Assembly (NCBI GenBank): GCA_020846875.1
Contig: JADLDB010000062.1
Span: forward strand, 1-64,000
Length of the DNA: 64,000 nt
Source: Myxococcales bacterium
GTDB taxonomy: Bacteria > Myxococcota > Myxococcia > Myxococcales > Myxococcaceae
Reading direction: 5' to 3'
Shown: one piece after another, positions 8,872 through 16,872 of the stretch
Layout: every line of letters begins with the position of its first letter
How positions within the stretch are numbered: position 1 is the first letter of the stretch
Program-made: the position numbers and the translations under genes
The notes under the pieces: model-generated
Databases searched by the model: none
Seen by the model: the letters and a program-made list of their open reading frames with translations, nothing else
What the model was told of the DNA's origin: nothing

Positions 8872-10704
8872 TCACTTGAGCAGCGTGAGCAGGCCCAGCA
8901 CGCCCAGCACCAGCGCGGCGATCGAGTCCCCGGCGATGAGGCCGCCGCCCACCAGCGAGGTGGTGGACATGTCCTCGGGCAGCTCCTCGGGGCCCTTCTC
9001 CTTGTGCACGGCCTCGGCCCGCCACTTCTGCACCGTGTTCCAGAAGGACGAGAAGATGCCCCCGGCGCCGAACCACATCGAGGTGCCGAACTCCACGAAG
9101 CCGGCGAAGGACGACGCGTAGGGCGACGGCATCAGCACCGCGTCGAAGGCGAAGTCGAAGGCGAAGCCCTTGCCCTTCTTGCTCCACTCCTTGTACCGGG
9201 CGTTGGCCTTCACCACCTTGCGGATCACCTCGGTGGCGAGGCCCAGGGCCACGCCCACCAGCATCGCGGGGATCTGCCACGCCTTGGGCGCCGTCAGCCC
9301 GCGCAGCGCGCCGACGAACTTGTACGTCATCGCCGACTGCCACTGCGCCACCTTCAGCTCCGGGTGCGCGAAGGTGTCTTCCTTCAGCACCGGGTAGGCG
9401 GCCATGAAGATCTTCGCCATGTAGACGGCCAGCACCGCGCCCACCAAGACGCCGATCACCTGGAAGCGGAACTGGTTGGTGCGGTTGGTGCCCAGGCGCC
9501 AGCCGGTGGAGCGGTCCTGCTGCATGTCGCCGCCGATGGAGCAGACGACGAAGACGATCGAGCCGGCCAGCAGCCCGGCGATCGGATCGACCAGGCCCAT
9601 CGCGGCCATCGCCACCACCGACAGCACGAAGGCCGAGCTGATCGGGTTGGAGTCGGTGATGCCCAGCGAGATCCCGTTGACCAGCATCATCAGGAAGGAC
9701 GTCGCCACCGCGAACAGCACCCAGTGCAGGGGCACCTGCATCAGGCCGAAGGAGACGGCGATCACCGCCAGGCCCCAGAAGACCAGCCAGAGGATGAGGC
9801 GCGTGGAGTTGGTGCGCTTCCACTCCTCGCCCGCCGGCACCGGCTCGGCGGCCTTCGGCGCGCCCGCGCGCAGCTTCGCCACCGCCTGCCTCAGGATGAT
9901 GGCGATGTCCACCACCGCCGCGCCCATGATCGTGCCGAGCGCCACCAGGAAGGCGAACTTGCGGTAGGGATCGTTCTCTCCCAGCCAGCCCTGGGCCTTG
10001 AGCCACGGCGTCAGCGCCCACCAGATCACCGCCCAGGTGATGGCCGGCACGCCGATGCGCGCCCCGACGATCATCCCCGCGCCGACGGTGGAGGTGCTGA
10101 TGCCGGTGGCGGCGAGGCGCCCGATGACGGCGAGGTGCCCCAGCTTCTCGAGGACGAGCGGGAACGCGACGCCGATGCCGATGCCGCTGAACAACTGCGC
10201 CACGCTGCGCTTGAGCAGCTTGAGATCCGTGAGCGCGCGCAGGATGTTCGCGACCGCCAGCCCCGACGGGTAGGTGAGCTGCAGCTTGTCGACCAGCACC
10301 GGGGTGTACAGCATGCCCACGCCCACGCCGAACATGCCCACGCAGAGGAAGTAGACCAGCAGGTGCCACGTCTTCGGCTCCGGCAGGCCGAGCCACACCA
10401 TCGCCTGGATGAGCACCCCCATCGCCGCCATCGACGCCACCGACGCCGCGGCCGTCTGCATGTAGTTGGCGCCGTGCTTGCCTTCCGGCCCGTAGAAGTA
10501 GGTGACGGTGGAGCCGAGGATCCCCGCCAGCACCTGGCCGCCGACGAAGAAGCCCAGGGAGAAGTTCATGTAGCTGGCGGTGATGCCGCCGAGCGGCCCG
10601 AGGATCAGGATCGCGATCAGCGCCAGGAAGACGTAGTAGCCCGGCGAGTTCAGCGGCAGCAGCCGGGGCAGCAGGCGTTGGGGTGGGACGGGCTCGGTGC
10701 TCAC
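8872..10704 (-). CDS. OPT-family oligopeptide/metal-chelate transporter
   Basis: The product is 610 residues with about fourteen hydrophobic segments, the usual size for bacterial OPT transporters, which import oligopeptides or siderophore-like chelates by proton symport. Characteristic stretches include YPSGLAVANILRALTD and SIGGDMQQDRSTGWRLGTNR followed by a hydrophobic helix; the latter is a hallmark loop of the family. It starts at GTG 10704 (MSTEPVPPQ), a cytoplasmic Pro-rich N-terminus before the first helix. It heads a four-gene operon (transporter, two unknown proteins, OmpA-domain protein). The substrate cannot be told from sequence. Confidence 0.93.
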   Translation of the reverse strand: MSTEPVPPQRLLPRLLPLNSPGYYVFLALIAILILGPLGGITASYMNFSLGFFVGGQVLAGILGSTVTYFYGPEGKHGANYMQTAAASVASMAAMGVLIQAMVWLGLPEPKTWHLLVYFLCVGMFGVGVGMLYTPVLVDKLQLTYPSGLAVANILRALTDLKLLKRSVAQLFSGIGIGVAFPLVLEKLGHLAVIGRLAATGISTSTVGAGMIVGARIGVPAITWAVIWWALTPWLKAQGWLGENDPYRKFAFLVALGTIMGAAVVDIAIILRQAVAKLRAGAPKAAEPVPAGEEWKRTNSTRLILWLVFWGLAVIAVSFGLMQVPLHWVLFAVATSFLMMLVNGISLGITDSNPISSAFVLSVVAMAAMGLVDPIAGLLAGSIVFVVCSIGGDMQQDRSTGWRLGTNRTNQFRFQVIGVLVGAVLAVYMAKIFMAAYPVLKEDTFAHPELKVAQWQSAMTYKFVGALRGLTAPKAWQIPAMLVGVALGLATEVIRKVVKANARYKEWSKKGKGFAFDFAFDAVLMPSPYASSFAGFVEFGTSMWFGAGGIFSSFWNTVQKWRAEAVHKEKGPEELPEDMSTTSLVGGGLIAGDSIAALVLGVLGLLTLLK

Positions 10705-10798: not shown

Positions 10799-11545
10799 TC
10801 ACGGCCCCTCGCGAGCCGAGCAGAGCGCCGCCAACAGCGCGTCGAGGTCCTCCTGCCGCCGCAGGTACCACGAGGCCTCCGACGCCGCCGCACGTCCCAC
10901 CCGCACCGTCACCAGCCGGCGATCGCGCAGCCGGAAGACCGCTTCGTCCGTAACGTCGTCACCGACGTACAGCACCCGCGCCGCTCGCGCCTGGTCCGCC
11001 AACCTCAGCACCGCGTCGCCCTTGTCCGGCGCGCCGGCCGGCAGCACGTTCACCAGCCGCTTCCCGGGGATGGTGCGCACCGGCACGGACAGGCGGGCGA
11101 TCGCCGCGAGGATCGCCCGGCGTGCCAGCTCCGGCCGAGGGGCGCGGCGGAAGTGCACCGACAAGGAGAAGCGCTTGTCCTCCAGCTCGACGCCGGGCGT
11201 CCCCTCCAGCGCCTGCGCCAACGCGCTCCGCGTCGACGCGACGGCGCGCGCCATGGCCCGGGTGGCCGACGCCGGCTCGATGCCGTGGTTGCCCACGACC
11301 ACCTTCACGCCCAGCCCCGCCACCCGCGCGCCTACGTCCGCCCGCGCCCGCCCCGACACGACCACCACCGGGTAGCGCCGGCACGCCGCCGCCAGCAGGG
11401 CGCGCGTCGAGGCCTTCATCGTGGCGCGGGTGCGATCGGCCACGATCGGCGCCAGGGTCCCGTCGAAGTCGAAGGCCAGCAGCGCGCGCGAGGCGGCCAG
11501 CGCGGCCGCGACCTCCTTCCCGGCGGCGGCCGACAGCCACCTCAC
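10799..11545 (-). CDS. otsB: Trehalose-6-phosphate phosphatase
   Basis: The product is 248 residues of the HAD superfamily, dephosphorylating trehalose-6-phosphate to trehalose. Visible motifs are FDFDGTLAPI (nucleophile and acid aspartates), VVVSGR, GNHGIE, and DKGDAVLRL followed by YVGDDVTDEAVF (Mg-binding aspartates). The start is GTG 11545, whose bases overlap the otsA stop as GTGA, so translation is coupled and the order is otsA then otsB. With the divergent GH15 gene this forms a compact trehalose locus. In myxobacteria trehalose accumulates under osmotic stress and during spore formation. Confidence 0.93.
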   Translation of the reverse strand: MRWLSAAAGKEVAAALAASRALLAFDFDGTLAPIVADRTRATMKASTRALLAAACRRYPVVVVSGRARADVGARVAGLGVKVVVGNHGIEPASATRAMARAVASTRSALAQALEGTPGVELEDKRFSLSVHFRRAPRPELARRAILAAIARLSVPVRTIPGKRLVNVLPAGAPDKGDAVLRLADQARAARVLYVGDDVTDEAVFRLRDRRLVTVRVGRAAASEASWYLRRQEDLDALLAALCSAREGP

Positions 11546-13752
11546 GAGACGCCCGTCAGCGGTGACAGCGGCGTGAGCCTGCCGGTGAGCCGCTCCCGCC
11601 GGCGCAGCTCGGCCGCGTCCACCAGCATGCGCCCCGCCCAGCGGTAGACGTTGAACTCCGACACCAGGCGCCGCATCGCGCGCATCCGTTCCCGCTGCTC
11701 CTCGGGTGACATGCGCAGCGCCGCCGCCAGCGCGTCGCTCGCCTGACGCAGATCGTACGGGTTCACCACCAGCGCCTCGGTGAGATCGCGCGCGGCGCCG
11801 GTGAATTGGCTGAGCAGCAGCACCCCCTGCTCGTCGTCCCGGGCGGCGACGAATTCCTTGGCCACCAGGTTCATCCCGTCGTGGAGGCTCGACACGTAGC
11901 AGAGGTCGGCGGCCCGGTAGTACCGGAACACCGTCTGCGGCTCGTGGTGGTCCCGCAGCAGCACCACCGGCCGCCACCCCGGCGTGCCCCAGCGGGCGTT
12001 GATCTCTGCGGCCAACTGCTCGACGCGCTCGTTGAGCTCCCGGTAGCGCGTGATCTTCATGCGGCTGGGCGCGGCCAACTGGATGAAGGTGAAGCGCCCG
12101 CGGAACTCGGGGAAGCGGGCCAACAGCTCGTCCACCGCCGCGAGGCGCTCCTCGACGCCCTTGGTGTAATCGAGCCGGTCGATCCCCACGCCCAGCAGCG
12201 CGTCGGCCCCAAGCCCAAGCTCCCCGCGGATCGCCTTCCGGCACTCGGCCACGCCGGGAACGTCGTGCAGCCAGCGGACCGGCCACTCGATGGAGATGGG
12301 GTACGGGCGCACCAGCGTCTTGCGGCCCTGCTGCACCACCGCCCTCGCCTCGCGATCGATGCGGCTCTCCATGAAGGCGTCCACCGCGTCGATGAAGTTG
12401 TTGCAGTGCTGCTGGGTGTGGAAGCCGATGATGCTCGAGCCCAGCAACCCCGAGAGCAGCTCGTCCCGCCAGGGGCAGATCCCGAAGCGCTCGGCGTTGG
12501 GCCAGGGGATGTGCCAGAAGGTGAGGATGGTGGCGCGCGGCAGCCGCTCGCGGATCATCCGCGGGGCCAGCGCGAAGTGGTAGTCCTGCACCAGCACGAT
12601 CGGCTCGTCGGAGTCGACCTCCTCGCACACCGCGCCGGCGAAGCGCCGGTTCACCGCCACGTAGGTCTCCCAGTCGCTGCTGCGGAACACCGGCCGGGCG
12701 TGCGCCACGTGGCACAGCGGCCAGAGGCCTTCGTTGGAGAACCCGTAGTAGTAGCCGGCTTCCTCTTCCTCGGTCAGCCAGACGCGGCGCAGCAGGTACG
12801 ACTCTTCGCCCGGGGGCACGCGCACGCGATCCTTCGCGTCCACGGTGTCGCGATCCGCGCTGCCGCTGCCGTGCGCCACCCAGGTCCCCGAGCACGCCCG
12901 CATCACCGGCTCCAGCGCCGTCACCAGGCCGCTGGCCGGGTGCACCACCTTCACCCCGCCTTCGCCCCGCTCGTGGATGTAGGGCTCCCGGTTCGCCAGC
13001 ACCACCACCCGCTCGCCCTGGAGGTGCCGGGTCAGCGTCGCCTTGAGCCGCGCAGGATCCCACGGGCCTCCCCGCGCTTCCCCCTCGCGCTCGTTGACCA
13101 GGCGATCCACCAACGCGCGCACGTCGCGGACCATGGGCTGGAACTCCGTCGACGCCTCGCCCAGCAAGGCGCGCTGCAGCTCCAGCGTCCACCCCTTCCA
13201 GGCGAAGCGGGCCGCCAGGAGCGTCGCCACCGCCGCCGCCAGGGCCAGCACGAAGAAGCCCCCGAAGAGCACCTGCCTGGTCGCGGCGTCGCGCTGATCC
13301 ACGTACCCGAGGTCGTGCACCAGCACCACGGTCCCCAGCACTCCCCCCTCGCCCTCCAGCGGAGTGGCCGTGAGGTGCAGCGAGTCCTCCGGCGCCATCG
13401 TGAAGCCGCGGCCCCCGGCCCGCCCCGCGTGCTCCGCCACCAGGGCGCAGGTGAACCCCAGGGGGTAGTCCGAGGTGGCCGCCAGCAGCTCGCCGTCGGG
13501 CAGGCACGCCGCCGCCCCGAGGATCCGGCTGTCCCGGGTGATGTCTTCCAGCGCGCGCCCGACGGTGGCGCGATCATCTGGCCAGCCCCGCGTCAACCCC
13601 ACCCGGGCCGAGTTGACGGCCAGCTTCGACCGCATCGCCAGGTCCGACTCCCACCAGGCCTTCGTGGTGCGCGCCAGCACCCACCACGCGGCGACGGTCA
13701 CCAACGCCAACACCGCGAGCAGGACCAGCACGAAGCGGGCTGCGCGACGCAT
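11542..13752 (-). CDS. otsA: Membrane-anchored trehalose-6-phosphate synthase with N-terminal sensor-like region
   Basis: The product is 736 residues, about 260 longer than a standard OtsA. It opens with a membrane segment (7-27), then about 130 residues predicted to be periplasmic ([38 protein letters not shown]), which resemble a Cache/PAS-like extracytoplasmic sensor. A second membrane segment (161-182) and a short helical linker follow. From about 247 a full GT20 synthase is seen: [74 protein letters not shown]. All expected UDP-glucose and glucose-6-phosphate contacts appear present. The reaction makes trehalose-6-phosphate; the fusion suggests synthesis gated at the membrane. No Shine-Dalgarno sequence precedes ATG 13752. 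Confidence 0.9.
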
Positions 13753-13759
13753 CGGGTCG

Positions 13760-13788
13760 TCTATAACCCGAAGTGGTTGTATATCCAA
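13760..13788 (-). promoter_or_regulatory. Candidate otsA-otsB promoter, near-leaderless
   Basis: On the minus strand TTGGAT, 17 bases, then TATAGA reads as a sigma-70-type -35/-10 pair. The first base of the otsA ATG lies about eight bases beyond the -10 box, where transcription would be expected to begin. No ribosome site precedes the ATG, which fits a leaderless message. The match is moderate (about 3/6 and 4/6), so this is a prediction only. Confidence 0.35.
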
Positions 13789-13794
13789 TGGACG

Positions 13795-13801
13795 AAGGAG
13801 G
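13795..13801 (+). promoter_or_regulatory. Strong ribosome binding site fixing the GH15 start
   Basis: AAGGAGG lies five bases before GTG 13807 and is a near-perfect Shine-Dalgarno match. It rules out the longer in-frame extension and the out-of-frame ATG at 13788, and contrasts with the absent site of the divergent otsA. Confidence 0.75.
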
Positions 13802-13806
13802 AGTCC

Positions 13807-15580: not shown

Positions 15581-16066
15581 TCACGGCCTGCGCAGCGCTT
15601 CCGTCTCCAGCCCACAGGTCAGTTCGCCCAGCAGCTTCTGCGTGGTGACGATCGCCCGGGGCGACGAGGACGCGAGGAGCCGCTGCACGGCCAGCTCCAC
15701 CGTGGCCCGCGCGGGGTGATCGCGCCGGCGCCCCTTCGCCGAGAGGAAGAGGTGCGCCACCCGCCGATCGGTGACGCTCCGCCTGCGGACGAGCAGGCGC
15801 TTCTTCTCCAACCGCCCCACCGCGATGGAGATGGTGCCCGGATCGAGGTGGAGCTGCCTGGCGAGCTCGGACGAGGTGATGCCCGGGCGATGGCCGACGA
15901 CGCGAATGAACATGCGCTGCTGGGCGGTGATGCCGAGCTCGGCCTCCATGCGCTTGGACAGCCGCTCCAGCGCGTGGTTGAGCTGCCAGAGCGAGCGCAT
16001 GAAGGTGAGCGCCGGCGGCAGGATCAGCTCCCCGGGGTGAGGAGGTTCCTTCGGCGTGCGCTTCAC
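15581..16066 (-). CDS. MarR-family transcriptional regulator
   Basis: The product is 161 residues. The start is GTG 16066, overlapping the lpxI stop as GTGA. A helical dimerisation segment (SLWQLNHALERLSKRMEAELG) is followed by the winged helix: FIRVVGHRPGITSSELARQL, recognition helix DPGTISIAVGRLEKKRLL, and wing RRRSVTDRRVAHLFLSAKG. This is the classic MarR layout. Such proteins usually repress their own operon and respond to small aromatic or oxidised ligands. Its place as the last gene of the lipid A operon is unusual and may allow feedback on envelope synthesis; that is inference. It converges with the GH15 gene with seven bases between. Confidence 0.88.
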   Translation of the reverse strand: MKRTPKEPPHPGELILPPALTFMRSLWQLNHALERLSKRMEAELGITAQQRMFIRVVGHRPGITSSELARQLHLDPGTISIAVGRLEKKRLLVRRRSVTDRRVAHLFLSAKGRRRDHPARATVELAVQRLLASSSPRAIVTTQKLLGELTCGLETEALRRP

Positions 16067-16872
16067 GGAGCGAAGCCCACCACGGACAGCGCGAGCCGGT
16101 CGGCCCACTTGAAGAGCAGCGCCGCGTCCAGGAGCACCGCCTTCCCCGCCTCCACCGCCAGCACCTTCGCCCCCGCCTCGCGCATCACCTCCAGCGTCAC
16201 CGGCCCGGCCGCGGGGAGATCGAAGCGCGTGTCCTGCCCGGGCTTGAGGCGCTTGACCACCACGCCGCCCGGCCCGCCGTACCTCCCCGCGCGGCGGATG
16301 CACTCGTCGGTGCCCTCCACCGCCTCCACCGCCAGCACCACGCCGTCCTTCACCACCACCGTCTGCCCCACGTCCGCGCGCCCCAGGGAGGACGCCACCT
16401 CGCGGCCCAGCGCCACGTCGCGCTCCTGCTGCCAGGACAGCCTGGGGCCGGCCAGGTGGCCTTCGCGCGCCAGCACCTGTGGCACGAAGTCGGTGGCGGC
16501 GACGATGGTGACGCCCTGCTCCTCGAAGTACGCCGCCGCCGCGCGCAGCAGCTCGTCGTCGCGCATGCTGCGCACCTTCGAGGCGATCCGAAGCATGCCC
16601 AGGTCGGGCCGCGCCTGGGTGAGGCTGCGGATCCGCCCGATGCCGCCGGCCATCACCGCCTTCGTGACGCCCCGCCGCCGGAAGGCGCGCGCGATGTGCC
16701 CGGCCTGGCCCACCTTGACCCAGTCGAGGCTGGCGACCACGCCTTCAAGCTCGCCCTGCTCGGCCTCGCCCTCGAAGGCCACCGCGTGCACGGCCAGGCC
16801 CTTCTCTTTCGCCGCCTCCGCGAAGAGGACCGGCAGGCGTCCGCTGCCCGCGATGAGGCCGATGGACTCCAT
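16063..16872 (-). CDS. lpxI: UDP-2,3-diacylglucosamine diphosphatase
   Basis: The product is 269 residues matching the LpxI family (formerly DUF1009), which hydrolyses UDP-2,3-diacylglucosamine to lipid X in lipid A synthesis, in place of LpxH. Visible landmarks are IGLIAGSGRLPVLFAEAAK at the start, GGIGRIRSL, and the C-terminal catalytic-domain stretches VVVKDGVVLAVEAVEGTDE and KPGQDTRFDLPAAGPVT. It starts at ATG 16872, three bases after the lpxA stop, and overlaps the MarR gene. The operon context (lpxD, fabZ, lpxA) agrees with the assignment. Confidence 0.92.
   Translation of the reverse strand: MESIGLIAGSGRLPVLFAEAAKEKGLAVHAVAFEGEAEQGELEGVVASLDWVKVGQAGHIARAFRRRGVTKAVMAGGIGRIRSLTQARPDLGMLRIASKVRSMRDDELLRAAAAYFEEQGVTIVAATDFVPQVLAREGHLAGPRLSWQQERDVALGREVASSLGRADVGQTVVVKDGVVLAVEAVEGTDECIRRAGRYGGPGGVVVKRLKPGQDTRFDLPAAGPVTLEVMREAGAKVLAVEAGKAVLLDAALLFKWADRLALSVVGFAP

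Follow-up and report, generated by a model that had tools for sequence, protein, structure and literature searches.

Results

Organization of the locus

In the window, which is the whole stretch of 64,000 nucleotides analysed here, a gene for a predicted membrane-bound trehalose-6-phosphate synthase lies on the reverse strand, surrounded by the following genes:

8872-10704 (-), OPT-family transporter
10799..11545 (-), otsB, trehalose-6-phosphate phosphatase, 248 aa, with a GTGA overlap with the synthase stop
11542..13752 (-), putative membrane-bound trehalose-6-phosphate synthase, gene including stop, 736 aa
13807..15573 (+), divergent gene for a 588-aa GH15 protein whose N-terminal domain is trehalase-like, 54 bp from the synthase start
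15581-16111 (-), MarR-family regulator

The synthase reading frame runs from an ATG at 13752 to 11545 and is followed by the stop codon at 11542-11544. The otsB start is a GTG at 11545, so that the two genes share four nucleotides (GTGA) at the synthase TGA. The OtsB protein scored above the cut-off of the T6PP model TIGR00685 (104.7 bits, cut-off 68.05), and the GH15 protein was matched by PF00723 (152.7 bits) and PF19291 (51.4 bits). As only 54 bp (13753-13806) separate the two divergent starts, the synthase and GH15 promoters probably overlap or extend into coding sequence. The GTG start of the GH15 gene is preceded by a clear AGGAGG-like ribosome-binding sequence. Among the contig-profile loci described below that had enough flanking sequence to be testable, otsB was the next gene after the synthase in 39 of 47, and a GH15 gene was divergent from the synthase in 27 of 48; in three Planctomycetota loci (L047, L052, L054), the otsB-like and GH15-like genes were both found upstream.

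The synthase was the only GT20 match in the source genome (7.06 Mb, 200 contigs, completeness score 100%). Its protein was divided as follows, all features being on the reverse strand:

13672..13734 (-), membrane helix 1, residues about 7-27, by hydropathy; within helix 2-48 of the AlphaFold model
13279..13668 (-), predicted periplasmic PDC/Cache-like domain, residues about 29-158, by conservation, AlphaFold model and fold searches
13198..13275 (-), membrane helix 2, residues about 160-185, by hydropathy; inside one continuous model helix, 149-196
13018..13197 (-), predicted cytoplasmic helical linker, residues 186-245, by model and conservation
11611..13014 (-), GT20 synthase domain, residues about 247-714, by profile and structure matches

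Hydropathy peaked twice, reaching 2.77 within residues 7-27 and 2.5 within residues 160-185, and the N-terminal MRR..R suggests that helix 1 has its N-terminus inside. The order of helix 1, about 130 residues, helix 2, helical linker and complete GT20 domain, with otsB coupled behind, is that described in the earlier note, and it was confirmed by hydropathy, Pfam and the otsB overlap. From the models, the synthase looks like a membrane protein with a folded, sensor-like domain outside and the enzyme inside.

The enzyme domain

The Pfam GT20 profile (PF00982) matched the synthase with 392 bits (E 5e-117, cut-off 32.5) over profile positions 2-470 of 473, the match spanning residues 250-714 of the submitted 738-aa translation. 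The scores with more specific trehalose models were below their cut-offs: 412.4 bits for the OtsA equivalog TIGR02400 of NCBIfam (cut-off 564.85) and 469 bits for the bifunctional PRK14501 (cut-off 634). Glucosylglycerol-phosphate synthase was also considered and was rejected, the corresponding model TIGR02398 giving 297 bits for a cut-off of 569, less than the two best trehalose models, with the T6PP gene adjoining.

The full-length structure model (pLDDT 86.0, falling to just 53-58 at residues 181-230) matched crystal structures of trehalose-6-phosphate synthase (TPS) in a Foldseek search (5jio, E 6.1e-39, TMt 0.92). The positions that line the substrate site of OtsA were kept relative to the crystallised M. 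thermoresistibile TPS, and they were invariant or nearly so in alignment A5. These kept positions, together with the adjoining T6PP equivalog, indirectly support a trehalose-6-phosphate synthase activity.

Predicted fold of the periplasmic module

The earlier note had read residues 28-160 as Cache/PAS-like and had proposed structure prediction followed by a Foldseek search. An AlphaFold2 model of residues 1-243, built from a 67-sequence input, had a pLDDT of 88.6. It contained helices at 2-48, 61-71, 102-111, 149-196 and 202-226, and strands at 77-83, 89-92, 125-134 and 137-147. Its top Foldseek match in the PDB was the WalK model 9a5d (E 7.9e-7), followed by the YycG extracellular domain 5is1 (E 5.6e-5, TMt 0.61) and by WalK 7dud and the entry 3cwf, with CitA and DctB ranking lower. 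With a second structure aligner, 7dud gave a Z score of 10.7 over 126 residues at 3.0 Å, and many PDC domains were largely tied at Z of about 9-12. However, Roadblock/HBXIP-type folds also reached Z of about 9.5, and the fold match alone is therefore no proof of sensing.

At the level of sequence profiles, the whole-protein Pfam scan assigned no family to the N-terminal part at E<=1, and none of the Pfam Cache models scored over its cut-off with the window protein (dCache_3, E 0.26, 11.3 bits for a cut-off of 25.7). Among 67 members, sub-threshold Pfam matches were obtained to SMP_2 (15), dCache_3 (5), CHASE4 (4) and sCache_3_2 (2). The best relative, which belongs to a distant sensor group, reached 27.1 bits with sCache_3_2 (cut-off 28.4, E 4.9e-6). 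When alignment A4 was compared with the PDB by sequence profile, the best match was a weak one to PdtaS (E 0.007); this alignment comprised 67 hand-chosen rows, near-identical rows being omitted, as were L038, L051, L076, L079, L080 and L119, which lack the domain-border motif. Since a PDC fold is predicted between two membrane helices and the Pfam cut-offs were missed, the module is best described as having a Cache-like fold without being assigned to any Pfam Cache family. The Cache/PAS-like reading was supported by the predicted structure, by fold searches returning PDC/Cache extracytoplasmic sensor domains (WalK/YycG, CitA, DctB) and by the weak profile matches in relatives.

The distant sensor group (L130, L152, L170-L180) carries a module without the cysteine pair described below, placed before a GT20 domain of 51-55% identity, and some of its members gave weak sCache_3_2 or dCache_1 matches. 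The module of this group (13 members) aligned end to end with the main module (hhalign, E 1.4e-23).

In the model, the linker consists of helical segments up to residue 196 and then at 202-226 and 233-242, with P206, D210 and L214 conserved. HAMP identity was examined and is not supported: Pfam HAMP (PF00672) gave no match in the linker, and the 13 HAMP segments of the source genome aligned with alignment A3 over 12 columns (E 0.27) and with the distant-group alignment A6 over 47 columns (E 0.005, probability 7%). The likeness of the predicted linker to HAMP is confined to its position and its helical hairpin.

Constraint on the module and the start of translation

Mean identity to the window protein, calculated on 80 rows, was lowest in the periplasmic part (36%, against 73% for GT20). 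In 12 close pairs, which were hand-picked essentially within the 30 closest and in some of which dS was high, dN/dS was about 0.08-0.46 for the periplasmic part and about 0.03-0.41 for GT20. W33, D37, R41, D74, R76, C83, P97, C102, G140, D147 and R154 were invariant or near-invariant in 83 rows. Two of these residues form a cysteine pair:

13504..13506 (-), C83 codon
13447..13449 (-), C102 codon

Both cysteines were present in 80 of the 83 rows, neither in 3 and a single one in none; since some rows are identical or nearly so (L060, L131), these residue counts are not independent. The earlier note would have abandoned its reading if the N-terminal region were an anchor without a folded domain. 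The predicted fold, the purifying selection and the near-invariant residues support instead a conserved unit that is more than a mere anchor.

The same data bear on the start of translation, since the earlier note would equally have given way to a downstream start yielding a soluble enzyme. An ordinary soluble OtsA could be made in this way, the upstream reading being untranslated or cleaved off: no clear ribosome-binding sequence precedes the ATG at 13752, and residue 207 is an in-frame ATG codon with GGAG nine bases upstream. However, relatives mostly have L or I rather than a start M at position 207, and the full-length synthase is conserved across phyla. A soluble downstream start is very unlikely, since this conservation extends to both membrane helices and to the periplasmic part between them, all of which are under purifying selection; this start was discarded on the grounds of conservation and dN/dS in spite of the GGAG.

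Distribution of the architecture

In a whole-protein search of 60 genomes, source genome included, 39 had some GT20 match. Of the 59 others, 15 had a full-length match with 57-73% identity, starting no later than residue 5 and ending no earlier than residue 726, and the architecture is therefore not a chance one. The profile of the N-terminal module matched 44 of 195 genomes of the phylum, a tally that includes weak or partial matches (G105, G026, G093).

When contigs were scanned with the module profile, 51 loci were obtained in Myxococcota, Acidobacteriota, Planctomycetota and one Gammaproteobacteria assembly. GT20 followed the module in frame in all 51, among which L082 has 41 module residues, L071 and L073 start inside the module and the L072 contig ends within GT20. 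In the match tables of drawn samples, each with its centre genome included, full-length matches were present in 17 of 199 Acidobacteriota (two more starting from residue 117), 4 of 398 Pseudomonadota and 2 of 149 Planctomycetota. The architecture search suggested in the earlier note thus showed that GT20 with two N-terminal membrane segments is found repeatedly, in Myxococcota, Acidobacteriota and Planctomycetota as well as in a small number of Pseudomonadota.

Two sensor-type synthases per genome were seen in G202, G208, G200, G319 and G865; in G202 and G319 the two belong to distinct subtypes, as though adjusted to separate signals. A second, divergent copy with a shorter N-terminal part (L115, G005:C57) stands beside the standard form in the same genome.

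A natural series of sensor-bearing and sensor-less forms

The GT20 relatives form a series of sensor-bearing, one-helix anchored, soluble and sensor-deleted proteins, the latter with both helices. The anchored forms are nine Pseudomonadota homologues (L135-L143) with one membrane helix, no sensor and a GT20 domain 59-62% identical to that of the window. The sensor-deleted forms (L113 and L114, from G147 and G149) keep both helices and GT20, and about 100 periplasmic residues are missing. They were found in 2 of 27 genomes of one genus, the other 25 having just a GT20 of 40-42% identity.

Between the two sensor-deleted genes, dN/dS was 0.06 for GT20, 0.04 for helix 2 and 0.29 for the linker. 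In an ungapped stretch of 24 residues, their linkers have 5 and 3 prolines; over 22 aligned positions, the 83 sensor-bearing rows have 0-2 (one in 81 of the 83). Sensor and linker thus appear to have been lost together, as one unit; alternatively, the pair could mark relaxed use. As both genes come from one clade, they count as one event.

A tree of 110 GT20 domains split 19 classic sequences from 91 of the synthase clade with an SH-aLRT of 100. It was built by a quick method, with SH-aLRT support only, from 110 of 138 GT20 rows, the sensor rows being thinned from 70 to 42 and L071, L073, L082, L115 and L144 left out. The nine one-helix forms made up one group beside the sensor-bearing Pseudomonadota, 15 of 17 soluble rows clustered beside the rows with the distant sensor module, and the sensor-deleted pair was nested in the sensor group; L166 and L168 lie on long branches and their placement is unsure. 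This suggests that the sensor was lost more than once, although the quick tree settles neither root nor direction.

Discussion

A possible receptor-type synthase

On these computational observations of architecture, predicted sensor fold, sensor constraint, cross-phylum conservation, substrate-site positions and neighbourhood, the protein is probably a membrane-embedded, receptor-type trehalose-6-phosphate synthase. The two helices would place a single PDC/Cache-type sensor in the periplasm and GT20 in the cytoplasm. The input from outside could be a ligand, the redox state of C83/C102 or the state of the envelope, including osmotic state; the sensed change would be passed on as a displacement of helix 2 and the helical linker that would shift the activity or assembly of GT20, whose product, trehalose 6-phosphate (T6P), would pass to the coupled OtsB. 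The path from cue to synthesis would involve neither a kinase nor a second messenger nor transcription. The orientation, dimerisation, transmission of the signal, the signal itself and the sign of its effect are what we infer here. Control of synthesis by the sensor is plausible, as the earlier note had proposed in suggesting that periplasmic signals may directly control trehalose synthesis; the osmotic or cell-wall cue that it named is not specifically supported. On balance, we lean slightly towards the wider view of a Cache-type receptor with glycosyltransferase output, present in at least four phyla and repeatedly deprived of its sensor, in which the cue sets compatible-solute synthesis directly.

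The N-terminal part might instead merely bring synthesis to the inner membrane, in the vicinity of a partner, an exporter or an envelope enzyme, the periplasmic fold binding a partner or being structural. Anchoring alone may indeed be the kept feature, because the nine Pseudomonadota homologues retain one helix without a sensor; these forms are a single group, and the sensor-deleted pair retains both helices, with helix 2 constrained. However, near-invariant residues, paired cysteines and a folded Cache-type domain are more than an anchor needs, and linker breakage is confined to the proteins that have lost the sensor, so that an anchor or scaffold is a rather unlikely alternative, though one to be taken seriously. 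A special case of the receptor reading, in which activity is set by the disulphide state of C83/C102 and not by a small ligand, draws on the all-or-none occurrence of the two cysteines; the pair may also be a purely structural disulphide, such bonds being common in periplasmic domains. Near-duplicate rows inflate that count, and the distant sensor group keeps the architecture without the pair; we regard a decisive part for the cysteines as improbable.

Relation to known systems

The synthase resembles OtsA (E. coli, 1GZ5; M. thermoresistibile, 5JIJ) in its GT20 fold, substrate-site positions and coupled otsB. The solved single-domain OtsA forms are soluble and 455-534 residues long, whereas the synthase has about 245 additional residues with two helices and the predicted sensor fold. 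The succession of helix 1, PDC-type domain, helix 2 and helical linker is that of the WalK/YycG, CitA and DctB histidine kinases and of chemoreceptors. However, the output here would be a biosynthetic glycosyltransferase instead of a kinase, chemoreceptor or nucleotide cyclase, and a further difference from these single-Cache/PDC receptors is that the linker is not HAMP by sequence. In the part of the 2016 Cache census considered here, the reported outputs are signalling ones, and no description of a sensor-GT20 fusion was found in the open-access literature (PMC).

If the receptor reading is true, a Cache-type domain on a metabolic glycosyltransferase extends sensor-output fusions into biosynthesis and offers a one-protein route from the cell exterior to desiccation or osmotic protection. 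Trehalose is a stress-protecting sugar, and with this design its synthesis could come under the direct influence of a signal from outside. The series of sensor, anchored, soluble and sensor-deleted forms makes this idea of direct control testable.

In Thermoproteus tenax, T6P synthesis is regulated post-translationally by formation of a TPSP-GT complex (PMC3634074). As presented in the part of that report on the complex, this archaeal system has separate proteins and no fused sensor, whereas the synthase described here is one fusion; a putative mechanosensitive channel gene lies in the TPSP operon. In Ramlibacter tataouinensis, GH15, otsB and TPS genes form a cluster and the GH15 protein was proposed as a trehalase (PMC3164672). 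The three kinds of gene are the same as at our locus, and the part of that report on the cluster mentions no membrane sensor on the synthase.
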